Positions 3,752-45,180 of a DNA stretch of 64,000 nucleotides are shown here, piece by piece. The stretch is taken from assembly GCA_026391835.1 (NCBI GenBank), contig JAPLDF010000034.1, forward strand, positions 1 to 64,000. Direction: 5' to 3'. How positions within the stretch are numbered: the stretch's first letter is position 1; every line of letters begins with the position of its first letter. The notes beneath the pieces are model-generated. The model was given only the letters and a program-made list of their open reading frames with translations, searched no databases and was not told the origin of the DNA. The stretch is from Bacteroidota bacterium (GTDB taxonomy: Bacteria > Bacteroidota > Bacteroidia > Bacteroidales > FEN-979). A program made the translations under genes and the position numbers.

Positions 3752-5536
3752 TTATTTGTTTACCGGGAACGAATAAAGATGAACAAAATCAGGAAGAACG
3801 GATTGATAGTGCCGCGACTTTGCAACACGCCCCATGGCAAGAACGGATCCCGGGGAGGCGTTCAGAAAGCACCCGGTAACGAGTTTCAGTGATTCATAAT
3901 ACTTGGGGTTCTGGTCTTTGTCATAGCCGTGAAAATCAACCGCCGATACAATGGTGAATGCCGTGTCGCTGAACTGGATTTCCTTCAGGTCATACCGCCA
4001 GTCGCGGTTATACCTGAAGACAGCTGTTTTGTTTCCATGGGCCGGGATCGCAAAAAAGGTGTCTTCCGGTTTCAGGGTATCCAGACCGATGGTCTTTCCA
4101 AAATGGTTCTGTTTGTTGCCTGTAAGATTATCCCAGGCCGCTTGGGAAAGGTTCAGTTTCCGCAGGGAATATGCGTATTTTCCGTCACTTTTGCTCCTTG
4201 TCACTGTCAGCAACACATCGCAAGCAACACCCTGCAGAAAATGCCCTGCCGAGATGCCGGCCTCCTGCAGGCTGCGGTCCCACTCTTTGACCGGGTTGCT
4301 TTCATCCGATGCCATGACCTTCCAGGTACCGCCGGTTTTACCATCCGTTTCAAACGACATCACTTTCCAGGTGCCGTTGCCGGCAACCCCGAGGATTTCG
4401 GACCGCCCGTCGCCATTGAAATCGCCTGCGAAGATGGAAGCTGCGGGAGCATCCGATTTAGAAAGTAGTTTCAGGCTGGTTTGCAAAGCCCCGTCGTTGC
4501 TGCAAAGGTTTGCCGGTGGGGCGAGCGCTCCGAGCATCCAGCCTTTTTCGGCCATCACAATGAACTGCTCTGTTTGCCCCGGGATGAATTTCCCTTTTAC
4601 TATTTTTTTTACCGCACCCAGTGATGCCAGGATGGCCGGGTTGTTGAGGCTGAGTTTCCTGAATTCACGGCTTCCCTGGCAGTATGCATATATTGCCGGT
4701 TTACCGGCTTTACTCACAACGAGCAGGGCGTCATTGCCGGTGGCCAGAAAGTTGCCGGCGATTGCATGGTCTTCAGGATCGATATCCGCAGGATTTATAT
4801 TCCTGCCAAGGGATTCCTTTTCAAGCACCGAAACCGGGAATGGCGGGTAGTTGAACTTTGGGATGAACCCTTCGGGCTTCGTCATGTCAACTCTTGCCGA
4901 ATCACCCCGGCGGTCGACCGCGCCGCCAAAAGAGATAAAATAATCATCGATGAGGATATCCGTGCCGCTGTTGTTCCAGAAGTAGACCTGGAGTTTGTAG
5001 GAGGGTTTGAAGGTGATTTTAGACAGGTCAAAGTAGGTGCTGATCTTAAACCACTTTCCCCTCGGCACTTCCGGATCGGAAAGCCCCACCCCCTGCCAGA
5101 ACACATTGACACCCACCTCGTTGGAGGCTGTAAACACAAGGCTACCCTTCACATTGGTTTTCGTGGGAAATACATAGATCCATGCACTCAAGGCCACCGC
5201 CCTGAGGTTTTCGACGCCCACCTCCCCGGCGGTCCGCTCCACGACCACGCTGAAACTGTTCTGCCCGAAAGCCTTTACCGAGTATTGTCCCGAATGGGCC
5301 AGTCCTTTATAAAATCCACCCGGCATCTCTTTCCCGGCGGCAACTTCGAAATCGTAATAGAGGGTGTGCGGAGAGAGGTTGTGCGCTTTTTCGGGGTTTA
5401 CAAACTCGGATTCAGAAACCGCCGGCATCTTGACCACCTTTGTAAAGGGAAAATATTTCAGTCCCAAAGCAAGCACAACGGCAGACAATAAAAATACCAG
5501 GCTAAAAATGAGCAGTCTCTTGTTCTTCCTCTTCAT
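3752..5536 (-). CDS. Membrane-anchored protein with jelly-roll-like module and FG-GAP-like repeats
   Basis: A 594-residue protein with one N-terminal membrane anchor (residues about 8-29) and the rest outside the cytoplasm. Residues about 60-205 form the recurring module of this window: it opens with LYYDFE, and closes with LQVYFWNNSG and ILIDDYFISF. After it come segments such as FAGDFNGDGRSEILGVAGNGTW (shortened: DFNGDGRSEIL), which match the FG-GAP/VCBS calcium-loop style of beta-propeller blades. The gene lies 10 bp after the C1-like peptidase gene and 10 bp before the GH16-like lipoprotein gene, so the three are probably co-transcribed. The function is not known; a glycan-binding periplasmic or surface role is inferred. 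Confidence 0.6.
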   Translation of the reverse strand: MKRKNKRLLIFSLVFLLSAVVLALGLKYFPFTKVVKMPAVSESEFVNPEKAHNLSPHTLYYDFEVAAGKEMPGGFYKGLAHSGQYSVKAFGQNSFSVVVERTAGEVGVENLRAVALSAWIYVFPTKTNVKGSLVFTASNEVGVNVFWQGVGLSDPEVPRGKWFKISTYFDLSKITFKPSYKLQVYFWNNSGTDILIDDYFISFGGAVDRRGDSARVDMTKPEGFIPKFNYPPFPVSVLEKESLGRNINPADIDPEDHAIAGNFLATGNDALLVVSKAGKPAIYAYCQGSREFRKLSLNNPAILASLGAVKKIVKGKFIPGQTEQFIVMAEKGWMLGALAPPANLCSNDGALQTSLKLLSKSDAPAASIFAGDFNGDGRSEILGVAGNGTWKVMSFETDGKTGGTWKVMASDESNPVKEWDRSLQEAGISAGHFLQGVACDVLLTVTRSKSDGKYAYSLRKLNLSQAAWDNLTGNKQNHFGKTIGLDTLKPEDTFFAIPAHGNKTAVFRYNRDWRYDLKEIQFSDTAFTIVSAVDFHGYDKDQNPKYYESLKLVTGCFLNASPGSVLAMGRVAKSRHYQSVLPDFVHLYSFPVNK

Positions 5537-5546
5537 GCGGCGGTCG

Positions 5547-9971: not shown

Positions 9972-9999
9972 GACAACGATCATTTGATATGCTACAAAT

Positions 10000-11460
10000 T
10001 TACTGTTTCTTTTTCGATTGATCGTAGGAATAAATTGCGTCAAGAAGCATCATCGAATCGAGTGAAATCTTCCGGTCTTTTGCTTTCTGCGTGACCTGTG
10101 CGAACCATTCGGGATTGAACCGGATACCATAGGTGAGGTGGTAAATGCTATCCCAGTATGTCTTCCCCGGCAGGTTGTCGTAACCGGAACAAAAGGTATA
10201 ACCGGCATCCTCGCGGATAAGTTCATCCAGTGGCCTACCCTGGAACCGCGCCTTTTTCACCATAAACCGGAACCATGACCTGTCGTTCCTGATATCGTTC
10301 TCAAAACCGTAAACGAATGGATCCTTCACTTCGGGATGAAATGCAATGAAAGCCTCATCGGCGAAATTCCAGAAGCCGCAGTGAAGGTTGATCTCCGAAA
10401 CCATCAGCACCACCGCATCGTAGTTCTCCAGCTTGTCGAGCAGGTTCGACTTGTCGGCGTAAACCGGGGGGTCAAAATTCAGGTAGGGATAGAGATTTTT
10501 ATTGTAATACCAGTAATCCTGGCTTTTAAAGATGTGCTTCCCGTAATCTTCCACAATGCTCCCGTAGTAACTGTCGGCAATCACCAGCAGTTTTACGGTT
10601 TTGGGTGTACTGTCGAACGCTACCAGCGGATACACGCCAAGCACCTTGTTCAGCGGTAGGACGAGGTTCAGCAATTCGCCGATGTCGTTGTCCGTTCCGA
10701 GCGGGGAGTCAGAGTGGATGAGCTGTGTTGTTTTAAAGCGGGGCAATTTTGTTCCGGACAATTTTTCGATCGACTTTGCCAGGGTGTCCACCGCAAATGG
10801 CACCGCGTACAAACTCCAGTGCATGCCGTTCCGCGGGAAAAGCGCATAGCGGGAGGTGTCCTTCATCTTCATAAAGTAGCCCTGCAGGTCGAGGTAGTCA
10901 AGCCCCAGTTCCTTTGACCGCTGCAGCATGTAATCGTAGTTGGTCTGGGTCCGTTTGCCGGGGTGGAAATAGCCGGGGATGTACTCGGGGTAGAAGCTTG
11001 CCTTGCCCGGTTCAAAAACCAGCAGCAGCGGAACGCCATGGGCCCTGAGGCTGTCCCTCACGTTCCTGAGCCGCGACAATTTCTTGTCAATGGCCGTTGC
11101 CCCGATAAAAAATTCCCCGGTATACTCATGAATGTAATCCTCTTCGTACAGGCACTGCTGCCTGCCCATTACAAAACCTTCGGCATGGATGATCCCGAAA
11201 AAGGTATAGTCATACTGGTTCCTGATGCGGATAAGTGAATTGCGAAATCCAAGATGTTCGTTGGCCCGTGCCTGGTATACCTGCTGGAAATCCTGTGAAA
11301 ACCACCGTTTCCAGGTAAAATATTTCAGTTCCGGCGGGGGTGTTTTACTGAAAAACCCTTTCAGCTTCGATTCCCTTACGACAGGAAAGCGGTACTGCAC
11401 GGCGGAGACGGCCAGTGTGGCCAGGATGAAAATAAAAATTGTGTATTTCAACTTATGCAT
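10000..11460 (-). CDS. AlgJ/AlgX-like SGNH O-acyltransferase, copy 1
   Basis: A 486-residue protein with an N-terminal membrane anchor (IFIFILATLAVSAV) and a periplasmic SGNH-hydrolase-like domain of the AlgJ/AlgX/DHHW type. Seen motifs: FEPGKASFYPEY, the catalytic-type GMHWS with His214, and VIADSYYGS with Asp296 and Ser297 in the place of the GDS nucleophile elbow. In alginate and similar systems such proteins take acyl groups exported by an MBOAT protein and put them on the polysaccharide. The MBOAT partner (AlgI-like) is two genes upstream, and a second AlgJ-like protein is encoded at 14997-16127. The acceptor glycan is unknown. About 90 C-terminal residues extend beyond the core and have no match I recognise. 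Confidence 0.75.
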   Translation of the reverse strand: MHKLKYTIFIFILATLAVSAVQYRFPVVRESKLKGFFSKTPPPELKYFTWKRWFSQDFQQVYQARANEHLGFRNSLIRIRNQYDYTFFGIIHAEGFVMGRQQCLYEEDYIHEYTGEFFIGATAIDKKLSRLRNVRDSLRAHGVPLLLVFEPGKASFYPEYIPGYFHPGKRTQTNYDYMLQRSKELGLDYLDLQGYFMKMKDTSRYALFPRNGMHWSLYAVPFAVDTLAKSIEKLSGTKLPRFKTTQLIHSDSPLGTDNDIGELLNLVLPLNKVLGVYPLVAFDSTPKTVKLLVIADSYYGSIVEDYGKHIFKSQDYWYYNKNLYPYLNFDPPVYADKSNLLDKLENYDAVVLMVSEINLHCGFWNFADEAFIAFHPEVKDPFVYGFENDIRNDRSWFRFMVKKARFQGRPLDELIREDAGYTFCSGYDNLPGKTYWDSIYHLTYGIRFNPEWFAQVTQKAKDRKISLDSMMLLDAIYSYDQSKKKQ

Positions 11461-11557: not shown

Positions 11558-13441
11558 TCAATGTGTAAGCGCCCTGTATGATATCCTGAAATCATCCATT
11601 CCAAGCCTTTTCTTTTCGGGATTCCACAGGTAGACCTTCAGCAGGTTCGCCGGATCGGTACTCCTGACAATGCCGGAAACCGTGATCGTGTTCCATTGCC
11701 TGAGTTTCAGGGAATCGGCAGGCTGAACCCCGGCAATGTAGTATTCCAGCACGACATTTTTCTGTTCTTTGGAGATGACCAGCGTCAGCCATTTTGGATT
11801 CAGGGATTCCATCGGGTACACCCTCACGGTAGCGGTGATCATGATGGCAGGATTTTTGGTGATTCCCGCCAGCAGCCCGTAAAACCCGGGGCTGAACTCG
11901 GAACCCGTTTCAAACCAGGTATTGCCTGAACTGTCGGTGCGGCAGCTGTCGTTGCCCGAATGATAGGTACGATCGTCGAACGTGTTGGTGTACACCACCA
12001 CATCCTTTCCCTGGAGGAGATCCTGGTCGGTAAGCACCCGGTAGGTGGAATTGTCAAGGTTGAAATAGCGTTTGTCCAGCCTCCGCACATCGAGGTTTTT
12101 CGCCCAGGGAGCGCAGATATACAACATCGGATCGTTGAAGTTGATCCCTGCCTCAATTTTTCCGTACGTATCGTTGATATACATCGAAACCGAAGAATCG
12201 GGGCCTTCGAGGGAACTCAGGATCAGGGTTTCGGGCGCAAAGCCCCAGTATACATTTACCTGGTTGCGGTCGACCATCGATTCGGCGAGGATGAACTTCT
12301 TTTCGGGATATTTCCTGACGGTTTTTACAAGATTACTGATGTAAGCCTCGCGGTTTTTATAAAATCGTGATGCATCCGCCACCCGGAATACACCGGCAAA
12401 GAATACCAGGACCAGGATCACCTGTAAGATAAGTTTCTTCTTTTCGCCCGGAAAAATCACATCCTTCAGGAAGGGGATCAACAGGAGGATATTCAATCCC
12501 ATGAGGTTTTTCTCCTGGATGAATGGATAATACCAGATGTTGAACGTTGTGAACAGGACCAGTGAAAAGAGCACCATAAAAACCAGGTAGTAGGCAAGCT
12601 TCAGGTACTGTTTCATCATGATATACCAGGCCGTGGTGGCCAGGAACAGCAGCAGCGAGAAAAAATATACCCCCAGGGCATGCGTCTTCAGGAATTTATA
12701 ACTTTCGGAATAGGATACCACCCCGATCCGTTCAAAAAATTCGCCGAACCCCTTGAAGAAAAAACTCTCGTAGCCCGAGGAACTGGTTAAAAATTTAAAG
12801 AGCGCGAGTGCGACAATGATCACGCCCAGCAGGTACCCCTCGGGTTTGAACCACAGTTTGTTGTCGATGACGAAAAAACCCAGCACGAAGAGCACGGTAA
12901 ACATCGACACCGGGTGTGAATAAAAGCAGAGAAAAAGGATTGCCGTTGCCACCGCAAGCCGGATGATCCAGAACAAGGCACCGGGCTTAAACCGCATCGA
13001 CCAGGTTAAAAAAGCGTAGAAGAGGATCGTGTAAACCAACGCCTGGTGTGTTTCTGTTGAAATCCAGAAAAAGCTGTATTTCACCCCCAGCAGCAGCACG
13101 AGTGGTACGGCCAGCGCGAGGCGGTCAAGTTTGAACCCATAGGCGATCAGCAGGTATATCAGGTAATAGAGGAGGACAAATGAGAAGGAATAGACCATGA
13201 GGATGGCTTTCAGCGGCAGGTGCAGCTTTATGGCCACCAGTGCAAGGGATTGCGGGAGGACCGCTGCGATGCGGCCTGCTTCAATCACATAGTCGTGGTA
13301 ATAGAGCAGGTTGAATACAGCATAACAGGGGTCTACAAAACAGGTCCGTTCCAGGTAAAACAGGAGCGACAGGACGAACAGTACCAGGAACATCAGTTGT
13401 CCCAGCAGTTTATTATTCAATATCAATGATTTCGCCGACAT
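11558..13441 (-). CDS. Polytopic GT-C-like membrane protein with C-terminal jelly-roll-like module
   Basis: A 627-residue integral membrane protein. The ATG at 13441 (MSAKSLILNN) is preferred: the longer GTG-started frame would run deep into the MBOAT gene. About ten hydrophobic segments occupy residues 10-400, in the manner of GT-C glycosyltransferases or O-antigen-type membrane proteins, but no sequence signature identifies a donor. The C-terminal part (about 490-627) is a version of the recurring module: YTNTFDD, EFSPGFY, then LRQWNTITVSG, LKVYLWNPEKK and MDDFRISY. It begins 11 bp after the AlgI-like gene, so the two are surely co-transcribed. A role in building or exporting the glycan that AlgI/AlgJ modify is inferred from position only. 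Confidence 0.6.
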   Translation of the reverse strand: MSAKSLILNNKLLGQLMFLVLFVLSLLFYLERTCFVDPCYAVFNLLYYHDYVIEAGRIAAVLPQSLALVAIKLHLPLKAILMVYSFSFVLLYYLIYLLIAYGFKLDRLALAVPLVLLLGVKYSFFWISTETHQALVYTILFYAFLTWSMRFKPGALFWIIRLAVATAILFLCFYSHPVSMFTVLFVLGFFVIDNKLWFKPEGYLLGVIIVALALFKFLTSSSGYESFFFKGFGEFFERIGVVSYSESYKFLKTHALGVYFFSLLLFLATTAWYIMMKQYLKLAYYLVFMVLFSLVLFTTFNIWYYPFIQEKNLMGLNILLLIPFLKDVIFPGEKKKLILQVILVLVFFAGVFRVADASRFYKNREAYISNLVKTVRKYPEKKFILAESMVDRNQVNVYWGFAPETLILSSLEGPDSSVSMYINDTYGKIEAGINFNDPMLYICAPWAKNLDVRRLDKRYFNLDNSTYRVLTDQDLLQGKDVVVYTNTFDDRTYHSGNDSCRTDSSGNTWFETGSEFSPGFYGLLAGITKNPAIMITATVRVYPMESLNPKWLTLVISKEQKNVVLEYYIAGVQPADSLKLRQWNTITVSGIVRSTDPANLLKVYLWNPEKKRLGMDDFRISYRALTH

Positions 13442-13452
13442 AGCTGTTTTGG

Positions 13453-14910
13453 TTAAAACCTGAAATAGATAAACGGGCTGAACCCCGAGGATGTGATGGT
13501 CGCCTCGTTCAGGATGAACAGCAGCACCGCGATGATGGAAAAGGTGATGATCACTGCATTTCCAGGGTTGAAGTAGAATTTTTCGATGCGTGTTTCTGCC
13601 TGTTTCCACAATCCCCCGAACGAAAATGCAACCGCAATGGCAAGCATGGTCCAGAATTTCGGGTTGAGCCACACCACGTTTTCTGCAGCCTGGAACATGA
13701 ACATCCTGCGGATGTAAAACCAGGCATCAACCAGCGTGGCAGACCGGAAAAGCACCCACCCGATGGTGATCAGCAGGAATGTAAGCATGACGGAGGGTAT
13801 CCTGCCTGCCTTTTTCAGGTATTTCAGCAGGATGAGCCGGTCGAGGATGAGGAACAGGCCCATGTAGGCACCCCATACGATGAAGGTCCAGGCAGCACCG
13901 TGCCAGAATCCGCAAAGCAGGAAGGTGACGGTGGTGGCGATGAGGTAGATGATCTTGTCGGCCCGCAGCCCGAGGTAGCGTTCCGCAGGAAGTTTCCTGG
14001 AAGTTGCATAAGCCAGTGGCAGGAAGATATAATCGCGGAACCACATCGAGAGGGTGATGTGCCACCTCCGCCAGAACTCCGTAATATTCCGGGACACATA
14101 GGGGAAATTGAAATTCTCGGGCAGCCTGAATCCCAGCATGCGGGCAAGCCCGATGGCCATATCGGAATAGCCCGAAAAATCAAAATAAATCTGGAACGTA
14201 TAGGCGATTGCGCCGATCCATGCAATGCCGCTCGACAGTTCATGGGGTGCCAGGGCAAAGATCTCATCCACCGTGGTGCCAAGCACATCGGCGATCAGCA
14301 CTTTTTTCGACAACCCGATCATGAAACGGATAAAACCGGTGAGTCGGTAATCTACGTTTTCCTGGCTTGAACGGTCGGTAATCTGGCCGGCGATCTGCCC
14401 CGGACGCACGATCGGGCCGGAGAGCATCTGCGGGAACATGAAAATATACAGAGCAAAATCCTGCAGCTTTGCAAAAACCGGCTGCTGCCTCTTGTAAACA
14501 TCAAGCGTATAGGCCAGTTTCTGGAAGGTGATGAATGAAATCCCGACAGGAAGGGCGATCTGGGTCCACCCCATCGGCTTTGCGCCCAAATGGGTCATGA
14601 CCACCTGGAACTGGTCGAAAAAAAAGTTCATGTACTTGAAATAGAGCAGCAGGGCCAGGTTCAGAAACACAGACAGGAAAAAGAGTGCGCGGCGCAGGTT
14701 CTTCTCTTTCCTGTCCATCAGGCTGATCAGAAAATAATCGACGACTACTGAACCCATCACAAAGAACACAAATTTCGGCGCTCCCCACGCATAAAATAAA
14801 ACGCTGGCCAGCAGTAAAAACCAATTGCGGAATCTCCCGGGAATTAGGTAATAAACCAGCAGGAACAATGGCAGGAAATAGAGGAGGAACAGACTGGTAC
14901 TAAAAATCAT
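13453..14910 (-). CDS. AlgI-type MBOAT family O-acyltransferase
   Basis: A 485-residue polytopic membrane protein of the membrane-bound O-acyltransferase family. It starts MIFSTSLFLLYFLPLFLLVYY, typical of AlgI/DltB/PatA relatives. Diagnostic stretches are LPVGISFITFQ, YFDFSGYSDMAIGLA, FWRRWHITLSMWFRDYIFLPL (His284) and LLCGFWHGAAWTF, whose His337 is the invariant catalytic histidine. Family members move acetyl or other acyl groups from a cytoplasmic donor across the inner membrane. The two AlgJ/AlgX-like proteins flanking it are the expected periplasmic transferases. The length and motifs are complete, so it should be active. It is 86 bp downstream of AlgJ-like copy 2 and 11 bp upstream of the next polytopic gene. 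Confidence 0.9.
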   Translation of the reverse strand: MIFSTSLFLLYFLPLFLLVYYLIPGRFRNWFLLLASVLFYAWGAPKFVFFVMGSVVVDYFLISLMDRKEKNLRRALFFLSVFLNLALLLYFKYMNFFFDQFQVVMTHLGAKPMGWTQIALPVGISFITFQKLAYTLDVYKRQQPVFAKLQDFALYIFMFPQMLSGPIVRPGQIAGQITDRSSQENVDYRLTGFIRFMIGLSKKVLIADVLGTTVDEIFALAPHELSSGIAWIGAIAYTFQIYFDFSGYSDMAIGLARMLGFRLPENFNFPYVSRNITEFWRRWHITLSMWFRDYIFLPLAYATSRKLPAERYLGLRADKIIYLIATTVTFLLCGFWHGAAWTFIVWGAYMGLFLILDRLILLKYLKKAGRIPSVMLTFLLITIGWVLFRSATLVDAWFYIRRMFMFQAAENVVWLNPKFWTMLAIAVAFSFGGLWKQAETRIEKFYFNPGNAVIITFSIIAVLLFILNEATITSSGFSPFIYFRF

Positions 14911-14996: not shown

Positions 14997-16127
14997 TCAG
15001 CGAATCATTGCACGCTGCAGCCTGTCGATGAATCCGTATCCAAGGTTTCCGTACCCGCCATTTGTCTGCATGATGACGATCACATCCTGCCGCAGGATGG
15101 TTGCCACCAGGTCTTCGTTTGCGGCGCGCCGGCCGGTATCATAGGAACCGCTGTAAACGTAGTAGTCATAGTACCAGAAATCCCTGTTCCTGAACACATT
15201 CGCAATGTAACCCGCCTCCGACCATGTAAAATAGAAACTGTCGCCGATGAAAAGTGCCGATGGCTTTTTCGCGCCGGACGGCTGGTCGTAGTGCACATGC
15301 GGATAGGCCATGGGCGGTTGAGGAATGTCCCATAACAGGTTCATCCCCTTACCAAGATCGCCATCACGGCCCCTGATTTCATTGGAGACAAGGATGCTGC
15401 CGGCCTCAAACCGGGGAAGGTTGCATGCTTTCCTTGCCCGGATATAGCGCACCAGGGAGTCGAACGCGATGCAGGCCCCGTAACTGCTCCAGTGGATGCC
15501 TGTTTTCGGAAACAGCCGGTAAGTTGATGTATCTTTCATCTTCAGGAACCAGTCGTTGAAATCAATGAAACTCACGTTTTTCTCCGCAAGTTTCTTTTTG
15601 TACCACTGGTAGTTGGAGATCCTGACCGGGTATTTCTGATAACGTTCGGGAAAATATTCATGAAAAAAAGTGCCTTTGTCGGGAGATAAAGCGATCACAA
15701 GCAATATTCCCCGCTCCTTCCAGAGCTGGTCCTGCAACTGTTTCAACTGGCCGGTGCGCGCCTCAACATTTCGCTTGCCGATGAAATCGAGCCCGTACCA
15801 GGATTTGATGTATGGTTCTTCAAAAAGATACCCGTTTTTCCCAACCACAACCTTGCGGGCATGCGGAAGGCTGAACAACGAATAGTCTACCTGGTTATTT
15901 ACCCGTACCAAGGCATTCCTGAAACCGGTGCTGTGATCGAGGTGCCGCATAAACTTGTCCTGGTATGTCCCGTTCCGGAATGAATTCCACGATAATTCCA
16001 GGGATGTTTCGGGTTCGGAATATCCATCCAGGGGAGCCAGCCAGATGACCCGGGTGGCTTTTTGAAAGGCGGGTAAAAGAAGGACGGCAACAAGGACGCC
16101 GAGAATCACTTTCTTAATGGTAACCAT
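14997..16127 (-). CDS. AlgJ/AlgX-like SGNH O-acyltransferase, copy 2
   Basis: A 376-residue anchored periplasmic protein of the same family as the copy at 10000-11460, but shorter. Start: the ATG at 16127 gives MVTIKKVILGVLVAVLLLPA, a clean signal anchor; a TTG at 16172 would overlap the upstream stop. The motifs are GYLFEEPYI, IALSPDKGTFFHEYFPE, GIHWSSYG with His212 and FIGDSFYFTW with Asp296-Ser297. It keeps the canonical GDS elbow that copy 1 has as ADS. It lies between the large GT-C-like gene and the MBOAT gene. Two AlgJ-like proteins beside one MBOAT suggest either two acceptor positions or a relay, like AlgJ and AlgX in alginate acetylation; this is inference. Confidence 0.8.
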   Translation of the reverse strand: MVTIKKVILGVLVAVLLLPAFQKATRVIWLAPLDGYSEPETSLELSWNSFRNGTYQDKFMRHLDHSTGFRNALVRVNNQVDYSLFSLPHARKVVVGKNGYLFEEPYIKSWYGLDFIGKRNVEARTGQLKQLQDQLWKERGILLVIALSPDKGTFFHEYFPERYQKYPVRISNYQWYKKKLAEKNVSFIDFNDWFLKMKDTSTYRLFPKTGIHWSSYGACIAFDSLVRYIRARKACNLPRFEAGSILVSNEIRGRDGDLGKGMNLLWDIPQPPMAYPHVHYDQPSGAKKPSALFIGDSFYFTWSEAGYIANVFRNRDFWYYDYYVYSGSYDTGRRAANEDLVATILRQDVIVIMQTNGGYGNLGYGFIDRLQRAMIR

Positions 16128-16168
16128 AAACGTACAAGCTATGACAGGCAGCCACCCGGATAAGTTCT

Positions 16169-18028
16169 TCAATCAAATTCAAACAGTTTAACTTCGATGT
16201 CATCCACCAGCACCTCTTTTTCGCCATGCCACCAGAAATAGACCTGGACCGTGCCTGACTGGTCTTCGAGGTAGGGTGTCTTGTAGTCGAGGCACACTTT
16301 GTTCCATGTAAAAGGTTTCAGGCTGGCTTTTTCGAGCGGCAGGATCCGGTATTTGTAGGATTTTCCATCCTGGTTGCATGTCACGACCAGTCCACATACA
16401 ACCTCTTCGGGTTTGCAGGTAAAATAGATATAACCGCAAGCCTGTATCCAGGCAAAATCCCTTTTCGACAACTCCTTATAGGCGATGTTGATCCCCGGCG
16501 AGAAAGCCCTGTCCTGATTCATCCGGATTGAGTAAGTCCCGCTGTTTGCAGTATCCCTGCAAAATCCTGCAAGTTCTTCCTTTGACGGGTGCTCAAAGTC
16601 ATAAGATGCCAGTACCCGGGAGGTGAATTTTTCTGCTGCCGGCAATCCTTCCTTTTCCTCATTGTCAAGCGAAGGCACCAGGTAGCGGCGGTCAGCGTCC
16701 TTTACGCTGGTTTTTCCAAAGATCCGCCAGTAATAACCCTTTGTCATCCCCGAGGAATCGAGAATATAATTGTAGTATTGCCACGTCTGGAACAGGTTGA
16801 GGGCGGCCAGGAGCAGGATCGTGGTGAAAAACAGTCCCTGAAGCACTTTATTTTTTCCTGTCACCCACTCAAGGAATGTGCATAGCGGAAAAGCCAGGAT
16901 CATGTAAGATTCCATAAGCGCCCGTTGCCCGAAACTGCCGCCATACCACCATGTTGGCCAGCTTGAAACAAGAAGCAGGTTAACCAGGAAAAAAACAAAA
17001 ACGGCGGTGAATATCCTGCGATATTTGATAGCCAGCGGGAGAAAGCCCGCCAGGGCGAATACCATCACCGGCGTATAGAGCAGCCAGCCTTTCCTGTATG
17101 AAAACAACACTTTTCCAAGGTATGGGGCGATCCATTCGAGTTGTTCCCCCTTTTCGTAGCTGTAATAGATCCATTTCCCGGTATGTGCTTTCCAGTAGAG
17201 CAACTGCAGCCCGACCACCAGGCAAAATGTCACGACCATCAACACGACCTGGAGATAATTTCCGGTCACAAGACGCCATTTCTTCTTCCATTCCGGGCTG
17301 CCCCATACTCCCCACAAAACGGGTACGAGCACGATCACACCAGCGGTCGGCCTCACAAGGGTGGCGAGGCCGCATAATAAACCGATCGCAAGTGCGTATT
17401 TCCACCGCTGATTATCATGCCACCGGATTGTATACCAGGTGATCATGGCGTAGAGCGTAAACAGGTAATTGTGCGGCATCACCCCGTCGAAGGCTGTAAG
17501 GTGCATGTAGTTTGTCCCGAAAACAATGATGATCATGCATATGGCAACAACCATGTCGCTGAAGAAACAACGCAGCACTTTCCTGAGGAACCAGAGCCCT
17601 GCCAGGGCGTAGATGATGCTGCCAAAGGCAATTGACACCTGGTATGGCATCGTAAAACCATCGGCGGCATAACCAAATATATGCGCGGCCAGGTGACCTA
17701 TTGCAAAAAACGGGAAATAGAGGATGGCCAGTCCCATCGGGTACTTCATCACATAATCTCCTGCAGGGCCCATGTAAGCCTGGTAAAAACCGATGGTCGG
17801 GTGATAGTTGTCAAGCACCTGCTGAACCCACAAAAAATTCCTGAGTCCCAGGTCATGGTGGATGAATGTTGCCGGGAGGTAGAGGTAGTAGCCAAAAATA
17901 TCCCAGCTGAGGATGGAAAGGACATCGTGGGTATCGAACCGGGGAAGCATGAACCGGCATACCACCATCACAAGGCAAAGCAGGTAAAACACTTTTTTTG
18001 AAACCGACTGGCCCTTTATCAGGTTCAT
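16169..18028 (-). CDS. GT-C-like glycosyltransferase with C-terminal jelly-roll-like module
   Basis: A 619-residue polytopic protein, first gene of the long minus-strand operon. The first extracytoplasmic loop holds FDTHDVLSILSWDIFGYYLYLPATF, broken here as SWDIFGYYLYLPA with an acidic residue typical of GT-C enzymes that use lipid-linked sugars. About eleven hydrophobic segments follow to residue 440. The C-terminal 140 residues are the clearest copy of the recurring module: LASYDFE, AFSPGINI, GYIYFTCKPEEV, VQVYFWWHGEKEVLVDDIEV, ending LFEFD. Paralogues are at 43573-45180 and, more distant, 20580-22376. A Bacteroidota-type promoter lies about 85 nt upstream. It probably transfers a sugar to a surface glycan or protein at the periplasmic face. 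Confidence 0.7.
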   Translation of the reverse strand: MNLIKGQSVSKKVFYLLCLVMVVCRFMLPRFDTHDVLSILSWDIFGYYLYLPATFIHHDLGLRNFLWVQQVLDNYHPTIGFYQAYMGPAGDYVMKYPMGLAILYFPFFAIGHLAAHIFGYAADGFTMPYQVSIAFGSIIYALAGLWFLRKVLRCFFSDMVVAICMIIIVFGTNYMHLTAFDGVMPHNYLFTLYAMITWYTIRWHDNQRWKYALAIGLLCGLATLVRPTAGVIVLVPVLWGVWGSPEWKKKWRLVTGNYLQVVLMVVTFCLVVGLQLLYWKAHTGKWIYYSYEKGEQLEWIAPYLGKVLFSYRKGWLLYTPVMVFALAGFLPLAIKYRRIFTAVFVFFLVNLLLVSSWPTWWYGGSFGQRALMESYMILAFPLCTFLEWVTGKNKVLQGLFFTTILLLAALNLFQTWQYYNYILDSSGMTKGYYWRIFGKTSVKDADRRYLVPSLDNEEKEGLPAAEKFTSRVLASYDFEHPSKEELAGFCRDTANSGTYSIRMNQDRAFSPGINIAYKELSKRDFAWIQACGYIYFTCKPEEVVCGLVVTCNQDGKSYKYRILPLEKASLKPFTWNKVCLDYKTPYLEDQSGTVQVYFWWHGEKEVLVDDIEVKLFEFD

Positions 18029-19195: not shown

Positions 19196-20608
19196 ATGAA
19201 CTGGAAAGCTTCACTGAAAGCTCCTTCCGCTCAGTTTTTCGCGGATTCGCTACTCATTTTTTTATCAGCCATTGTTTTGTGCAACATGGCTTTCTATAAC
19301 CAGTTCCCCCTTTTTTTTTCCGACACGGGTACACATTTATGGACGGCGTTCTGGGAATATAAACCCATCGACCGGCCGCTCTTTTACGGTGTGTTCATGA
19401 AACATGCGAGCCTGATGACTTCGCTCTGGCTCATCGTACTTGCACAGGCACTCGCAGTGGCCATCCCGCTTTTTTACTGCTTCAAATATTTCTCCGGCAC
19501 GCCCAAATTCAGGGTTTATTACCTGGCCTATATTTTCCTGATCACCTTTTTTACTGGTGCCTCCATCAATGTTGGCCAGCTCATCCCCGATGTGTTTACC
19601 CCAGTCGCCGTGCTTTGCATTGCCCTGTTCCTGTTTGCACCTAAATTGAAGGTCGTTGAAACGATTGTGACCTCATGTATATTCATCCTTGCAGTCGGTG
19701 TCCACAATTCACATTTTATCATAACCACACTGATCCTGCTGATATTTCTTTCGGCCTTCATCTTTAAAAAGACCAGGCTTGTCCTGCAAAGAGCACAGGT
19801 AAAGTTAATGAGGATCCTGTTTGCGCTGATGCTCGTGGCCTCCTCCTATGTGCTCGTTTCGACCATCCAGTACAATGCCGGGTTAAAGTTCGCAGTTTCA
19901 CGGTATGGCCATGTTTTTTTCATGGCCCGCCTTTACGATTGCGGCATCCTTGAACAATACCTGCAGGATGCCTGCCCGAAATATCATTTCCATCTTTGCA
20001 GTGAACAGGGCAAATTCCCGTGGGATTTTGTGTGGGATTATACAAACAGCCCGCTGTATAAAAATGGCGGATGGGAAGGCAACCGCGATGAGTTCAATGC
20101 GATCATCCGCGATATCCTCACAACGCCAAAGTACTGGCCCAGGCTGATCTCCCGTGAGGTGGAAGCTACTGTAAAACAATTCTTTTCTTTCCGCACGGGC
20201 GACACCGGTCCCGAATTGGAAGGATCCTCCTCCATCACCGCCATACGAAGCCACTGGCCCGAAAGCGTCAAAGAATTTTTCCAGGGGAAACAACAGCGGA
20301 AGTACCTCGACTGGACCATGTTGAATTTGTTCCAGTCGTACCTGATATATTTCTTGTTTTTTTGTACCATGCTGGTTTACTTTGTCCCGGGATTCAATCC
20401 GAAATACAAAATGTTCCTGACCTATGTGCTGATTGCCTTGCTGGTCAACGCGTTTGCCTGCGGGGCCATTTCCGGCGTTGTCGAGCGGTACCAGTCGCGG
20501 GTGATCTGGCTGCTTCCGCTGCCGTTCATGCTTTATCTTGCCAACCGCGGGGTTTCCTTTTCCAGGTTGAAAAATTTTTTCAGTGATCCCAATCGTAGTG
20601 AAACCTGA
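19196..20608 (+). CDS. Polytopic membrane protein of unknown function
   Basis: A 470-residue protein with about ten hydrophobic segments. The first loop (about residues 40-65) reads FFSDTGTHLWTAFWEYKPIDRP, whose first aspartate is placed as in GT-C proteins. A soluble stretch at about 250-375 (DACPKYHFHLCSEQGKF ... REVEATVKQFF) lies between the membrane blocks. I do not recognise the family. It sits between a T9SS cargo gene and a convergent GT-C-like gene whose 3' end overlaps it by 29 bp. A role in envelope glycan metabolism is only guilt by association. Confidence 0.6.
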   Translation: MNWKASLKAPSAQFFADSLLIFLSAIVLCNMAFYNQFPLFFSDTGTHLWTAFWEYKPIDRPLFYGVFMKHASLMTSLWLIVLAQALAVAIPLFYCFKYFSGTPKFRVYYLAYIFLITFFTGASINVGQLIPDVFTPVAVLCIALFLFAPKLKVVETIVTSCIFILAVGVHNSHFIITTLILLIFLSAFIFKKTRLVLQRAQVKLMRILFALMLVASSYVLVSTIQYNAGLKFAVSRYGHVFFMARLYDCGILEQYLQDACPKYHFHLCSEQGKFPWDFVWDYTNSPLYKNGGWEGNRDEFNAIIRDILTTPKYWPRLISREVEATVKQFFSFRTGDTGPELEGSSSITAIRSHWPESVKEFFQGKQQRKYLDWTMLNLFQSYLIYFLFFCTMLVYFVPGFNPKYKMFLTYVLIALLVNAFACGAISGVVERYQSRVIWLLPLPFMLYLANRGVSFSRLKNFFSDPNRSET

Positions 20609-22376
20609 TTGCCAGGTCATCAACATAAAAAAGCGCCCCGTCAGGGTTGTCGATAAACACATTGATGCGCAACGAGGAGTCGTTCACATCCGGGATGATG
20701 AATTTTTCCGATACATGGGTCCATACCAGGGGTGCGGCAAAAGGAGCTGAAAGGTCCCTGCTGTCGCTGAAAACAGGGTTGTCGCCCCTGGCAGTGTTGC
20801 AGGAGAGTGTTGTCCGTCCCGATCGCCGCCCGGGCGACAGGATCCACAAATCCACATCCATCTGCTTTGGCCACGGGTATTTGAATTCATACATCCCGGC
20901 CGAATACAGCGGCGTTCTTTTACTTTTACCATCGCACGGAATGCTGTATTCCCCCGAATGTGTAAAGATCATCGAAGGATGCCTGACCGGGCATAGTGCG
21001 AGATTTTCGAAATCATTCTGGTAAGAGTTAATCCTGCTCACCGGTGAAATTACCCCCGACCGCTCAACCGTCCGCAGGTAGTGATCCCAGTCCCAGGTTG
21101 ATCCGAAATAGCACCGGTCGAGGCGGTACAGGACCGCCGAATGGCGCAGGTTGGCATACACCGTAAAGAATACAAGGAAAAGCACAATGGTTTTAACAAC
21201 CAGGCTGCGGTTGCTGAACACCCCGGTAACCAGCCAGGCCAGCGGTACCGACAGGATGGTATAATATTCAACGTAAGAACGCTGGCCATAGCTGCAGCCG
21301 AAATACCACATGTTCCATGAGGCGCATACCAGGGTGACAAGGATGAAAACCGCCGCGATGAGCCACCCGTTCGATCTCCGGCGCAAAATCATCATGAAAG
21401 TCCCGGTCAAGAAGAAAAAGACCATGGGCGTATATGTGAGCAGGCCGTTCACCGGTGAAAAAAGAACTTCGGCAATGCGAGGATGGGACCAGTTGGTAAA
21501 TCCTTCTTTCCCGTACGAAAAATGAAGCCAGTTCCCCGAGAGGTATTTCCAGTAGATGAGCTGTGGTAAAAAAACGATAAACAGGATCAATGGGAAATAG
21601 AGGGCATACGGCGATTTCAGGAGAAGCTTAAGCCGTTTCAGCCATTCGGCTGGGCTTGCAGCATCCCATGTAAAAAACAGCAACCCCAGCAGGATATTCG
21701 TGGGACGGATCAGGATGGCCAGTGAAAGGGCGAAGCTGACCAGCAAAAAGTATGTACCTGATTGTGATACCCGGAATTTCTTCAAGGCAAACAGGAACAA
21801 AGCAAACAGGAAAAAGGAATAAACATGCGACATCATCCCGTCGATGAGTGCGTAATAGAAGAGGTTGGTCCCCAGGAAAACCAGGATTATGACGAAAAAA
21901 TTGACAACAGGCTTAAAGTAGTTGTCCAGGAACTTTTTCAGGAACCACAATCCAAGGACCAGGTAAATGACAGCCGCAAGGCTCATCATCCGCATGTACA
22001 GCATGGAAAACCCGCTTTCGCTGTCAAAGCCGGCAATGCGCGAAACAAGACCCGAAGCAAGAAAGAACGGGGATGCCAGCAGGGCCACGCCATACGTATA
22101 TTTGGTGCTGATTTTTTTGTTCAGGGTGTCGATGCTGAATCCGCCGCCGGTCTGGATGTCAAGATCAGCCGGCATCCGGCGGGTATCGAACCGGTAAAAA
22201 AATGTGGCGGGAAGGTAAATGTAATAGCCGGCACGGTCGGAGCATAGTTCGCTGGGATCGGTAAAACGGGTGGCATCCTTGTGAAAAAACCAGGAAAGCG
22301 CCAGGGAAGCGCAAAACACCACATAGAAAAACCAGCTTCCGGCGATGTGGGATTTCTTCACATGAATTGTTTTCAT
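20580..22376 (-). CDS. GT-C-like glycosyltransferase with divergent C-terminal beta module
   Basis: A 598-residue polytopic protein related in plan to the protein at 16169-18028: the first loop has SDRAGYYIYLPATFFY, the membrane part runs to about residue 430 and includes VLFSPVNGLLTYTPMVFFFL and SWNMWYFGCSYGQRSYVEYY, all with counterparts in the paralogue. The tail (about 450-598) begins YQNDFEN and ends INVFIDNPDGALFYVDDLAIRFHY; it is a diverged form of the recurring module. The last 29 bp overlap, tail to tail, the gene at 19196-20608. Probably a periplasmic-side sugar transferase; donor and acceptor unknown. Confidence 0.65.
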   Translation of the reverse strand: MKTIHVKKSHIAGSWFFYVVFCASLALSWFFHKDATRFTDPSELCSDRAGYYIYLPATFFYRFDTRRMPADLDIQTGGGFSIDTLNKKISTKYTYGVALLASPFFLASGLVSRIAGFDSESGFSMLYMRMMSLAAVIYLVLGLWFLKKFLDNYFKPVVNFFVIILVFLGTNLFYYALIDGMMSHVYSFFLFALFLFALKKFRVSQSGTYFLLVSFALSLAILIRPTNILLGLLFFTWDAASPAEWLKRLKLLLKSPYALYFPLILFIVFLPQLIYWKYLSGNWLHFSYGKEGFTNWSHPRIAEVLFSPVNGLLTYTPMVFFFLTGTFMMILRRRSNGWLIAAVFILVTLVCASWNMWYFGCSYGQRSYVEYYTILSVPLAWLVTGVFSNRSLVVKTIVLFLVFFTVYANLRHSAVLYRLDRCYFGSTWDWDHYLRTVERSGVISPVSRINSYQNDFENLALCPVRHPSMIFTHSGEYSIPCDGKSKRTPLYSAGMYEFKYPWPKQMDVDLWILSPGRRSGRTTLSCNTARGDNPVFSDSRDLSAPFAAPLVWTHVSEKFIIPDVNDSSLRINVFIDNPDGALFYVDDLAIRFHYDWDH

Positions 22377-22578: not shown

Positions 22579-23068
22579 AACCACTAAGGCACTTAGAGCA
22601 CTTAGATACACTAAGATTTTGGAAGTGCTGCAAATACGTCTGTGACCAGAGGAACCATCGACTCAACAATGTTCTCGCAATGAAAATTTATCAGCAATCC
22701 CTTGGGTTTCCCGGTAAGCTTCAGGTAGGATAAAAGTTGTGCTTTAAAGAGTGGTATCATAATATCAACCGCTTTCAGTTCGACAATCACCAGGTTTTCA
22801 ACCAATAAATCCAGTTTAAGCGTTCCACCCAAATCTTTTCCCTTGTAAATTAAGGGAACATAGACCTGAGATTTGACTTCCAGGCCGAAATTTGTCAGCT
22901 CCTCAATCAGGCAGGTGTGATAAACAGATTCCAGTAAACCCGGCCCCAGATTTTTATGAACTTCAATTGCACAACCGACAATCTTATATGCAACCTCATT
23001 GATATGCCTCTGTGTCATTATTTTTTCTTTTCTAAGTGCTACTTCGTGTCCTAAGTGCCTTAGTGGTT
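22579..23068. mobile_element. GxxExxY cassette with 18-bp terminal inverted repeats
   Basis: A 490-bp unit whose ends are perfect 18-bp inverted repeats: AACCACTAAGGCACTTAG at 22579-22596 and its reverse complement at 23051-23068. The only gene inside is the GxxExxY gene. The right end overlaps the TAA stop codon (23068-23070) of the gene at 23068-23700. No target-site duplication is evident. It has no transposase, so if mobile it must be moved in trans; it may instead be a recombinational repeat. Confidence 0.6.
22611..23018 (-). CDS. GxxExxY family protein (repeat-flanked)
   Basis: A 135-residue protein with the family signature GPGLLESVYHTC after VGCAIEVHKNL. LKLDLLVENLVIVELKAVD (about residues 64-82) carries the D...ExK residues expected of a PD-(D/E)XK-like core. 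It is close in pattern to the copy at 198-569 but clearly diverged. It is the sole gene inside a unit with perfect terminal inverted repeats and has a deleted sibling just downstream. The cellular function is not known for the family. Confidence 0.85.
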   Translation of the reverse strand: MTQRHINEVAYKIVGCAIEVHKNLGPGLLESVYHTCLIEELTNFGLEVKSQVYVPLIYKGKDLGGTLKLDLLVENLVIVELKAVDIMIPLFKAQLLSYLKLTGKPKGLLINFHCENIVESMVPLVTDVFAALPKS

Positions 23069-23700
23069 TATTTCAACTTGGCAGGCATAAAAAATTCAAC
23101 CTCCACATCATCCACCAGCATCACACCGCTCCCTCGGTACCAGAAATAGGCCTGCACCACATCTTCCTTACCTGCCGCAGCCGGAACACGGTAGTCGATG
23201 CTCACCCTGTTCCACTGGTTTGGTTTCAGTTGCTCGTTTTCTAGCGCCACAAACATATATTTGAAATTAACCCCCGAACGGTTGCACGTGGCAACCAGGT
23301 TGCATCTCACCTCTTCAGGCTGACAGGAAAACCAGACATACCCGGTTGCCCGGATCCAGGTGGAGTCGGTGTTGAGATCTTTGCATTTGATCCAGAGACC
23401 TGGTGAAAACGGGACATGTGAACTCATGACCAGGGATAGTTTTCCGCCATGCCCCCTGGCGGCAAGGTGCGCGCCGGTATCGAGGGCGTTGCCCGATTCA
23501 AAATCATAAAAGGCAAAGCGCTTTCCTGTTCCTTCGAGGCCAACGGGAAGCCGTTCCCGCCCGTTTTGTGCCTTCGGATCAAGGGTTTGATGGGTATCCC
23601 TGAAGTTCCTGAAGTCATTCACCAGTATGAATACCGCGAGCAGGGCCGTTGCCAAAATTCCGGCAACAATTGTTTTCCGGGAACGACCGTTGTCAAACAT
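23068..23700 (-). CDS. Membrane-anchored single-domain protein (free-standing jelly-roll-like module)
   Basis: A 210-residue protein: short cytoplasmic start, one membrane anchor (IVAGILATALLAVFILV, about residues 11-27), then almost only the module seen at the end of the GT-C-like proteins. It opens FAFYDFE, has PFSPGLWI, GYVWFSCQPEEV, LVATCNRSG, LKPNQWNRVSIDY, VVQAYFWYRGSG and VMLVDDVEVEFF. It resembles the tail of the protein at 16169-18028 over its whole length. It stands 63 bp downstream of the GT2 gene. As a stand-alone copy it may act as a partner for transferases that lack the module, or be a remnant of a longer gene that lost its membrane part. Function unknown. Confidence 0.6.
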   Translation of the reverse strand: MFDNGRSRKTIVAGILATALLAVFILVNDFRNFRDTHQTLDPKAQNGRERLPVGLEGTGKRFAFYDFESGNALDTGAHLAARGHGGKLSLVMSSHVPFSPGLWIKCKDLNTDSTWIRATGYVWFSCQPEEVRCNLVATCNRSGVNFKYMFVALENEQLKPNQWNRVSIDYRVPAAAGKEDVVQAYFWYRGSGVMLVDDVEVEFFMPAKLK

Positions 23701-23763: not shown

Positions 23764-24498
23764 TCACTTCAGGTATTTTCTGTCGAACACGTTGTATTTC
23801 AACAGGCACCAGACCGCTCGAAACGCATCTTTCAGCGCGATTTTCTTTCCCTCCTCGTAGGTCCGGCCATAATAGGATATCCCCACTTCGTAGATCCGTA
23901 TTTTTGGAAAGCGTGCAATTTTGGACGTCACTTCAGGTTCAAATCCGAAACGTTTCTCTTTGAAGTAGATTTGTTGCAGCATTTCGGCGCGGAAAAGTTT
24001 GTAACAGGTCTCCATGTCCGTGAGATTCAGGTTGGTGAACATGTTGGAGATAAAGGTCAGGAGCTTATTTCCAATGGAGTGCCAGAAGAACAGGATCCTG
24101 TGCGGTTTCCCACCCATGAACCGAGAACCGTAAACCACATCGGCAAAGCCGTCGAGCACAGGCTTCAGCAACACATTGTATTCGGCAGGATCATATTCGA
24201 GGTCGGCATCCTGGATGATGATGAAATCGCCCGTGGCTTCCGCGATGCCGCGGTGCAACGCCGCGCCTTTGCCCTGGTTCACCGGCTGGTTGAATATCCT
24301 GATGTCACTTCCCGGGTGATCTGTGATATATTTTTCAACAACGCCAACGGTGCCATCACTGCTGAAATCATTGACGATGATAATCTCCCTGGTCACTGCT
24401 TCTATCAGGTCGACTGCAAGGACTTTGTCAAGGATGCGGTGAATCGTTGCCGCTTCATTGTAGGCGGGAATTAAAATACTTAGCTTGCGGGATTCCAT
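23764..24498 (-). CDS. GT2 family glycosyltransferase (dolichyl-phosphate mannose synthase-like)
   Basis: A 244-residue GT-A fold transferase. [39 protein letters not shown] and [11 protein letters not shown] (the DxD-type metal site) are diagnostic of the polyprenyl-phosphate sugar synthases. No C-terminal membrane hairpins are present. Such enzymes make polyprenyl-phosphate-linked sugars, the donors that GT-C transferases use, which fits the GT-C-like genes nearby. I chose the ATG at 24498; a TTG at 24519 is the only upstream alternative. A TATTTTTG box lies at 24517-24524. Confidence 0.85.
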
Positions 24499-24516
24499 AA
24501 AACACGGTTCAAAAGG

Positions 24517-24524
24517 CAAAAATA
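24517..24524 (-). promoter_or_regulatory. Predicted -7 box (TATTTTTG) of the GT2 gene
   Basis: Minus-strand TATTTTTG fits TAnnTTTG and lies 18 nt before the ATG at 24498, in the 48-bp gap after murF-alr. No clear -33 element was found. Confidence 0.35.
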
Positions 24525-36069: not shown

Positions 36070-36090
36070 TAAGGTTACAACCTGATAAGC

Positions 36091-38361: not shown

Positions 38362-38395
38362 GGGCAATTCCAGAATTGCCCCAATTCCAGAATTG
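38361..38395. repeat. Palindromic repeat at the stop codon of the LruC gene
   Basis: 38361-38382 is a 10-bp stem (GGGGCAATTC with GAATTGCCCC) around a 2-nt centre, and 38382-38395 is a second shorter copy (CAATTCCAGAATTG). The first base lies in the stop codon of the preceding gene. Two further related words follow up to 38410. Confidence 0.7.
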
Positions 38396-38501
38396 CCCTC
38401 ATTCCGGGATTATCCCGATTGTCCACCCGCGAATTTTCCAACCCCTCCCAATCTTCAACCAGGGAATAAAAGGAATTTTCCTATTTTTACAAAAAAAAAT
38501 C

Positions 38502-39664: not shown

Positions 39665-39680
39665 AATCATCATTCATCAT

Positions 39681-40898: not shown

Positions 40899-40902
40899 AC
40901 AA

Positions 40903-41046
40903 GCGGACGGGCGGACAGGCGGACAGGCGGACAGGCGGACAGGCGGACAGGCGGACAGGCGGACAGGCGGACAGGCGGACAGGCGGACGGGCGGACAGGC
41001 GGACAGGCGGACAAGCGGACGGGCGGACGGGCGGACGGGCGGACGG
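40903..41046. repeat. Octamer tandem array (GCGGACAG), about 18 units
   Basis: Eighteen head-to-tail units of 8 bp, mostly GCGGACAG with GCGGACGG variants at both ends, start 4 nt after the beta-lactamase stop and end about 20 nt before a TAAATTTG promoter box of the TonB-type receptor gene. The array is far richer in G+C than the DNA around it. Three units of the same word lie inside murF. Copy number may vary between strains. Confidence 0.9.
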
Positions 41047-41067
41047 GGAAATGATGGTATTTTATTA

Positions 41068-41075
41068 TAAATTTG
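41068..41075 (+). promoter_or_regulatory. Predicted -7 box (TAAATTTG) of the receptor gene
   Basis: TAAATTTG lies 38 nt before the ATG at 41114. The -33 position falls at the very end of the octamer array (near 41045) and lacks TTTG. Confidence 0.4.
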
Positions 41076-41113
41076 CAGTCGTTTCTTTTGCCTCCATTAT
41101 TTCCTGATATTTT

Positions 41114-43534: not shown

Positions 43535-43572
43535 TGGAATTTCTATCTTTACACGCTAAATAAACCCTGCCA

Positions 43573-45180
43573 GTGAGGTTGAAAACCCGGCATTCTGAAA
43601 CTGTTTCGCTGAAAACCTTCTGGGTTTTACTTGCAGGGATCATCGTCCTGCGGTTCCTTTTTCCCCGTTTTGCGACGCACGATGTCACTGCATTTCTTTC
43701 GTGGGATGTTTTTTCTCATTATCTATGGCTCCCGGCATTCTTCATCCATGACGACCTCGGCATTCATGATTTTTATTGGGTGGAACAACTTCTCAGGAAC
43801 TATCAGCCAATCATCGGCTACCGGCAGGCCATCCTCCAATCCGGTACATCCGACGAGGTTCTCTCCTCCACCATGGGCATGGCGGTGATGTTCGCCCCAT
43901 TTTTCATGCAGGGGCACCTCGCTGCCATCATCCTTGGGTTTCCTGCCGACGGCCTTTCTGCACCATACCAGGTCGCCATGGCTGCCGGCGGATTGTGCTG
44001 GAGCATCCTGGGGATCTGGCTCCTCCGTAAGATCCTGCTATCATTCTTTACAGATAAAATCGCGGCCATTGCCATGGTCCTGATCATTTTCACAACCGGT
44101 TATTTCAACCTTGCCGCCTTTCATGGCGCCACCCCCGAAAACCTCCTGTTTTCCCTCTACCTCCTGCTTCTTATTTTTACCATCCGGCTTATACCCGGCC
44201 CCTCCTATGGAATTGCTGCCGGTATCGGGCTGATAGCCGGGCTCATCGTTCTCAGCCGGCCGTTCGACATCATCGTGGTCGTGCCCTGGCTGCTATACCT
44301 TGCCATCCGGCTTTCGGGCAAACATGCCCACCTCACTGCCTTCATGGTCCTGTTTTTTCTCTTCCCCGCCTCCCTGCAGTTTATTTACTGGAAGATCTTT
44401 GCGGGAAATTTCTATTTCAACACAGGGACACTTGTTCCCCGGCCGTTGCAGGCATTCACGCCATATATAGCCCTGGGGGTGATACCCGTAGGTTATTTCA
44501 TTCAATACCTGTCGCAAAAGAAACTTTTTTTAAAAAGCGTGTTTTTGGTGGTTTTTTGTTGCATTTCGGGGTGGAGCGTTTGGCATGCAGTAAATGAACA
44601 GGCAGCACTCCGCCAGTACAGCGAGGCTCCCGCAATATATTTTTACAGGTACAACGCAGAAGCGGCGATCCCCCGTCCAGAAAGATATGCTGCCAGGACA
44701 TACCAGGCATCGGAAACGGAGGTTTTAAACCACCCGGAATGGTTCCAAACACGCAGGATATTTTCGCTTAAACCCGGCCTGGTCAGGCTGAATGGCGGAT
44801 GCCGGTTTTCTCCGGGGATCAATGCCCCGCTGGCGGACTTTTCGCGCGACACCCTGATCGGGCTGAAGGCCCGGGCAAAGGTTTTTTGCGAGGGACCTGT
44901 CCGGGATAACCCCGGGCATCTCGTAGTAACACTCCTGAGGGATCGGCAGGTTGTCAACTGGCAGGGAACTCCCTTCGACGCTAAAAGCCTGAAAACAGGA
45001 CAATGGAACGATATCACCCTTAATTACATGATCCATAACCCGCAGAAAAATGACATCCTCCAGGTTTATGCATGGTACACCGGCAGCCGCCAGGTGCTCA
45101 TCGGGGTGATGTCGGTCACGCTATTCGAACTTAAAAAGGATGAGTCTCCGGAAAAAACTTCCGGGTTTGTATTTAATTGA
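43573..45180 (+). CDS. GT-C-like glycosyltransferase with C-terminal jelly-roll-like module
   Basis: A 535-residue polytopic protein with a GTG start. It is a paralogue of the protein at 16169-18028: [28 protein letters not shown] here against the same pattern there (key words [13 protein letters not shown] and HDDLGIHDF). The tail (about 395-520) holds [37 protein letters not shown] and VTLFEL; the usual VDD is changed to GVM, so the module has lost its aspartates. First gene of the second glycan cluster, 26 bp before the next GT-C gene. Likely transfers sugars from a lipid donor on the periplasmic side. Confidence 0.7.

Follow-up and report, generated by a model that had tools for sequence, protein, structure and literature searches.

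What is the function of a protein module that recurs six times within a short stretch of one bacterial genome? We have studied a 64,000-nucleotide stretch of DNA from an uncultured Bacteroidota bacterium of the order Bacteroidales (GCA_026391835.1, contig JAPLDF010000034.1, positions 1-64,000, forward strand), hereafter the window. A first-pass annotation had pointed here to six proteins sharing a module of about 140 residues, and all six segments were found where it had placed them. The copies are named by the start of their host genes, A3752, B11558, C16169, D20580, E23068 and F43573 (A to F below; Table 1). The six copies and their relatives share common ancestry. We consider it likely that the module is a jelly roll of carbohydrate-binding module (CBM) type with which GT-C glycosyltransferases hold their acceptor, and that in some lineages it has moved to non-catalytic partners.

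A module family clustered in one genome

The six cut-out segments were compared pairwise by phmmer and blastp. A, B, C, E and F are mutually linked, the closest pair being C and E, with 42% identity and a blastp E value of 4.5e-42 (blastp E values refer to the six-sequence database). Pairwise matches of D are weak or marginal, and against a profile of the five window copies without D (five-row profile) it reaches E 0.21 in its own genome. It joins in the first round of iteration (E≤1e-3) and ends at 2.8e-30, by then itself a member of the profile. The copies form one family, into which D is recruited only after relatives have been added.

In the host genome (5.35 Mb, 86 contigs) B and D were not recovered by single-sequence search. 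The five-row profile finds nine places at E≤10, comprising D at 0.21 and eight at E≤1e-6, of which five are its own rows and three are additional copies on contigs C41, C72 and C74. A 115-row module profile iterated with relatives (A5) finds the same nine places at E≤1e-4, all nine being among its rows; a 59-row alignment was too diverse to be suitable for the contig scan. Because six of the nine copies fall within the window, which is 1.2% of the genome, we conclude that the module is real and clustered there.

The motif marks ascribed to the module hold in part. The opening [YF]DFE is found in A, C and E, reads NDFE in D and is missing from B and F; FSPG is present in B, C, E and F and absent from A (FSVV) and D; and the DD pair at the exit has been lost from F.

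Matches to the five-row profile occur in 45 of 61 genomes, a set that counts the host genome and takes in every one of the 37 from its family, with 2-10 copies per genome. Within the order, the 115-row profile gave matches at E≤1e-4 in 138 of 295 genomes; in a sample of 296 drawn from the whole phylum it matched five at E≤1e-5, the host genome being one of them. All 27 named loci with close relatives are labelled metagenome-assembled (uncultured Bacteroidales or Bacteroidetes, two labelled Draconibacterium orientale).

The relatives provide 128 different module-bearing proteins: 89 polytopic proteins with a module tail, 20 with an anchor, module and C-terminal part (type A), 18 short proteins (type E, a class that includes proteins truncated by contig or region ends, e.g., L021, L081, L071 and L055; genomic regions are cited by L number) and one that is cut. 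By blast clustering, the polytopic parts fall into groups of 68 (with C, D and F), 16 (type G, none in the window) and three (with B), plus two singletons. Tandem modules behind one polytopic core were seen in L103:6843-9668 (three), L104:8029-10854 (three) and L107:4499-6895 (two).

Several short module proteins lie close together in L099:6240-10524 and L100:6660-13560, from genomes of the same class and another order. In L110:5282-7150 a C-like polytopic core (459 aa) and a module (163 aa) share a frame with one stop codon at the linker, which is either a true split or an assembly error.

Predicted fold and putative ligand cleft

In none of the six host proteins did Pfam match the module region, nor did the module of C alone give a match. 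Together, Pfam and NCBIfam placed no family over its cut-off for B, D or E. The Pfam family CBM_4_9 (PF02018) matches eight of the 115 family members at E≤1 (best 4.3e-5) and none of the six window proteins at that threshold, so that none reaches the curated cut-off.

What, then, is the fold? Structure prediction combined with fold search indicates a jelly roll of the CBM22 kind, close to CBM22 and CBM16, as the strand pattern had suggested. When the PDB was searched with A5, CBM22/CBM4_9 were the sole sequence matches under E 0.01, with 4xup at 7.6e-10 over two domains and single-domain chains at 7e-5 and 0.0021. CBM22 and CBM4_9 share the predicted jelly roll with the module; they differ in that the CBM22 matches sit on secreted hydrolases, and no window protein matches CBM_4_9.

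In the alignment of the profile with 4xup, the CBM22 residues W, Y, Y and E stand opposite module columns 64, 91, 128 and 130. At the first three columns 78%, 82% and 96% of the 115 rows have F, W, Y or H, and column 130, opposite the glutamate, is mostly W. All 16 type A rows carry W at columns 64, 91 and 130. Among the short rows, 17 of 17 have an aromatic residue at 91, 128 and 130, with W at 130 in every one (the 17 include three truncated C- or A-type rows, L021, L051 and L055). The alignment itself favors aromatic pairing, and the match with the CBM22 cleft is suggestive.

A number of observations weigh against sugar binding. Foldseek comparisons with CBMs give TM-scores of about 0.45-0.6 with an rmsd near 5, and the list of fold matches also contains domains with other roles (toxin and meprin domains, indole-alkaloid cyclases). 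Of 29 D-type modules, 11 have F, W or Y at column 91 and 9 have W at 130; column 64 is R in B and K in F, which is also the copy without the DD pair. In a related CBM22 we take W53, Y103, Y136 and E138 to line the ligand cleft. These roles were not found in the passages searched of PMC8280721 and PMC6556019. Lastly, the C-terminal CBM of ORF12, a GT136 transferase of Citrobacter youngae O1, proved non-essential in the conditions used (PMC11127046).

GT-C-like proteins with a module tail

In four of the window proteins, B, C, D and F, the module is the C-terminal tail of a polytopic protein, as first described. The predicted structure of C has a polytopic GT-C fold, and its core is close to oligosaccharyltransferase (OST) and protein O-mannosyltransferase (PMT) enzymes. 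The PMT_2 score of C is 33 against a cut-off of 26.1; F falls below it at 24.3, and B and D have no match. Acidic residues expected of the GT-C superfamily are present in the first extracytoplasmic loop of C as D43 and D59, each conserved in 53 of 54 intact C/D/F-type rows. The exception for D43 is L067, truncated by a contig end, and that for D59 is L085:7232, which has His. This loop would be the catalytic one, and the module would lie on the same, extracytoplasmic side.

A CBM-like domain C-terminal to a GT-C core is known elsewhere. The mycobacterial arabinosyltransferases EmbC, EmbA/B and AftD have this arrangement, with a lectin-like CBM that in EmbC binds the acceptor; substituting conserved Trp residues there inhibits extension (PMC3044687). 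Emb chains align to the predicted model of C over both core and module, although the domains are placed differently relative to each other (rmsd 12.8-13.9 for those Emb rows that span both parts), the Emb proteins come from another phylum and the C-terminal region of EmbC has two subdomains. Searching the PDB with profile A5 at E≤10 and with profile A6 at E≤1 gave no Emb chain; none was among the 50 matches listed in either module-only fold search, which is uninformative either way. In ORF12 the C-terminal CBM of about 150 residues binds unmodified O-polysaccharide, and by description GT136 is also alike in its lipid-phosphate-sugar donor and linked donor synthase; it differs in that the donor is Ribf, the CBM is called immunoglobulin-like and the available part of the paper describes no MBOAT or AlgX neighbors (PMC11127046). 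The architecture, which the first-pass annotation had taken as new, is therefore not new in kind, as EmbC, AftD and ORF12 all join a GT-C to an acceptor-binding CBM (PMC3044687, PMC11127046). Its reading of the fold and of the likely role stands. The newer part is the probable existence of non-catalytic partners; a literature search on GT-C plus CBM in Bacteroidetes and on GT-C pseudoenzymes gave no title on such a system within the collection searched.

We propose the following mechanism, in which the acceptor-holding role is taken from EmbC (PMC3044687) and, for binding, from ORF12 (PMC11127046). The module would be a diverged jelly roll of the CBM4/9/16/22 type on the extracytoplasmic face of the membrane. 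A neighboring GT2 resembling dolichol-phosphate-mannose synthase would make a lipid-phosphate sugar donor, from which the GT-C enzymes would transfer the sugar outside the cytoplasm while the C-terminal module holds the growing acceptor glycan beside the active site. The MBOAT and AlgX-like proteins would then acylate the glycan. This holding role would, in some lineages, have shifted to E and to loop-less GT-C relatives, encoded just upstream of a D-type transferase and probably working with it. We infer that the modules bind sugar, and that the acceptor they bind is this glycan. Several unannotated proteins of one conserved cluster thereby become a testable glycan-assembly system, and a domain missed by Pfam in six proteins is tied to many environmental Bacteroidales transferases.

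Could the acceptor be a protein? The module might then bind the sugar chains of glycoproteins during O-glycosylation of secreted or type IX secretion system (T9SS) cargo. Such a role would suit the similarity of the predicted core to OST and PMT enzymes, the PMT_2 match of C and two cluster proteins with T9SS-type sorting tails (one under the Pfam cut-off), but the MBOAT, AlgX and weak GH16-like genes, as judged by their sequences, would point to a polysaccharide, and we think a protein acceptor rather unlikely.

The idea of a dedicated glycan-assembly system whose transferases carry their own acceptor-binding module fits the conserved glycan cluster and the GT-C fusion in C. The module is not confined to transferases: E is a single transmembrane helix with a module, A joins the module to an FG-GAP-like part, and the core of F is incomplete. 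A relative of F in L047 is like F in this respect, with the loop present and most of positions 291-330 and position 369 missing.

Loop-less relatives and their probable D-type partners

Probable non-catalytic forms were missed in the first-pass annotation. Eight of the 64 C/D/F-type proteins are without the first extracytoplasmic loop that carries both Asp residues. The core residues R369, R226 and Q275 are each retained in one of these eight, compared with 52, 51 and 53 of the 54 intact rows, and the module residues W575, D609 and D610 in all eight. From the sequences, these loop-less relatives of C are probably non-catalytic partners. All eight genes lie directly upstream of a D-type gene, and five directly downstream of a GT2.

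Are these genes artefacts of assembly or gene calling in draft genomes? Four of the eight come from metagenome-assembled records (L068, L076, L079 and L082), and the apparent N terminus of L068:2421 proved to be another frame of the upstream GT2 gene, the true protein being loop-less. We nevertheless regard this explanation as very improbable. The eight cases come from eight assemblies and have the gene context described; tblastn with four genuine N termini as queries, run over up to 900 bases upstream, gave no loop match better than E 0.3 (a fifth query turned out to be the alternative frame); and the core residues are eroded along with the loop, with the module residues intact. On the best tree loop loss requires three changes (bootstrap 2-4), of which the starred branches force only one; several independent losses are likely. 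If the loop has been lost with the module kept, whether a GT-C needs its CBM in cis or in trans becomes directly testable.

Modules from the same type of host fall together on the module tree (11 changes, against a minimum of 6 and a shuffled mean of 69.7), and free hopping of modules between hosts was rejected because the tree follows host type. The tree has few columns, 43 of its 112 inner branches are open, the bootstrap is not settled and rooting is by midpoint; the copies on contigs C41, C72 and C74 have long end branches. Fourteen E modules form a clade (100/100) inside a set of C-type and short modules (99/99). Since the E clade is nested in this way, E arose most likely from the tail of a C-type protein.

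What precedes a D-type gene more generally? Directly upstream of 29 D-type genes we found E in ten, loop-less C in eight, intact C in four, D in three and none seen in three; in the window, E and D are separated by a PD-(D/E)XK gene. The count leaves out L059, L065, L070, L072, L074, L077 and L085, whose contigs match others counted, and the regions were chosen for holding matches, so that such counts do not measure genome-wide linkage. In seven of the eight loop-less pairs the first Met codon of D falls in the span from 4 bases before the upstream stop codon ends to 2 bases past that point. Neighborhood frames run from stop to stop, and frame overlaps are not gene overlaps; spacing can be read only from these first-Met distances, the Met codons being putative starts.

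Where E directly precedes D, in ten pairs, F, W and Y are absent from both column 91 and column 130 of every D module, and E has Y and W there in all ten; the window pair is alike. Behind loop-less C, D has retained more of these aromatics, with F or Y at column 91 in seven of eight and W at 130 in five of eight. Fourteen D rows are one clade on the module tree, and because the E-paired D genes are closely related the ten pairs probably stem from roughly one event in evolution. L054 and L055, too, are closely related. E or loop-less C probably acts together with D. A more tentative proposal, which we put at somewhat below even, is that these are dedicated membrane lectins evolved from GT-Cs: a family of GT-C pseudoenzymes in which loop-less or one-helix C-types present the nascent glycan in trans to the downstream D, whose own module, where E is the partner, lacks two cleft aromatics.

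The same pairing could mean that the jelly roll is an assembly domain that joins GT-C subunits to each other, or to the MBOAT and AlgX proteins, and binds no sugar. EmbA/B and PMT enzymes work as dimers. Many D modules are without the cleft aromatics and yet carry the family signature, module-only or loop-less genes stand directly before D, and the D Met within 4 bases of the stop in seven of eight loop-less cases is as in translational coupling. Against this, the aromatic columns aligned with CBM22 are kept in most rows other than D, including all the type A and short rows described above, and we judge a purely structural role improbable. Acceptor holding remains the preferred reading.

The surrounding gene cluster

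The coordinates of the module-bearing proteins and their neighbors are collected in Table 1.

Table 1. Module-bearing proteins and associated genes in the window
Feature	Position	Strand	Description
A	3752..5536	-	N-terminal transmembrane anchor, module ~4916-5365, C-terminal FG-GAP-like part; FG-GAP_3 match under Pfam cut-off
B	11558..13441	-	Polytopic, GT-C-like; C-terminal module ~11564-12004; N-terminal part outside C/D/F blast cluster; no Pfam match
C	16169..18028	-	GT-C transferase (predicted), PMT_2 over cut-off; C-terminal module ~16172-16621; conserved D43, D59
D	20580..22376	-	GT-C-like, C/D/F cluster; diverged module ~20589-21026; no aromatics at cleft columns 91, 130
E	23068..23700	-	Single-pass membrane protein, module only (~23080-23517)
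F	43573..45180	+	GT-C-like; module ~44701-45132; D43/D59 kept; without most of C positions 291-330 and R369
GT2, dolichol-phosphate-mannose-synthase-like	23764..24519	-	Likely maker of lipid-phosphate-sugar donor; best PDB match 5mlz, 2.3e-15
MBOAT O-acyltransferase (DltB/AlgI kind)	13453..14910	-	Closest to DltB in PDB
AlgX/AlgJ-like SGNH protein (AlgX2)	14997..16172	-	Pfam; weak AlgJ match, E 0.0046
AlgX-like SGNH protein (AlgX1)	10000..11460	-	Pfam
GH16-like secreted protein (weak)	1819..3741	-	Glyco_hydro_16 E 0.049, under cut-off; EIDFE motif by eye; no clear PDB match; conserved beside A
Second GT-C-like protein of F cluster, without module	45177..47030	+	LA_3751 family 8.2e-9, under cut-off; no Pfam match
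GT2 of F cluster	47027..47755	+	Domain match

Of 12 neighborhoods from the same family, selected for their matches, 11 contain MBOAT and ten contain type A. Among 20 further regions, the order PepA-PdxA-MurF/Alr-GT2-C recurs outside the family, whole or in part, in L109, L111, L114, L115 (no GT2 seen) and L116. An AlgX-like gene accompanies MBOAT in L109, L110 and L116. Alginate O-acetylation by AlgI, AlgJ and AlgX of Pseudomonas, and the DltB system, are similar in having MBOAT and SGNH partners within one cluster; the alginate systems differ in that no alginate polymerase gene was identified among the window proteins scanned.

Further features of the window were noted. Secreted proteins with T9SS-type sorting tails are encoded in the glycan cluster at 5547-10043 and 18256-19143, the first under and the second over the Por_Secre_tail cut-off. 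The PD-(D/E)XK (GxxExxY) gene between E and D occupies 22611-23018; a close relative (83%) is found in the corresponding cluster of L053, and in L080 such a gene comes after E. Beside the F cluster, 47377-48777 encodes a protein with a STELLO-type glycosyltransferase match. By eye, the product of 39681-40898 resembles a SnoaL-like part followed by a domain of the class D beta-lactamase type (STFKIPNALI). A 2415-aa frame at 52138-59385 lies between GcvH- and RuvA-like genes, which we take to be the position of the T9SS protein SprA.
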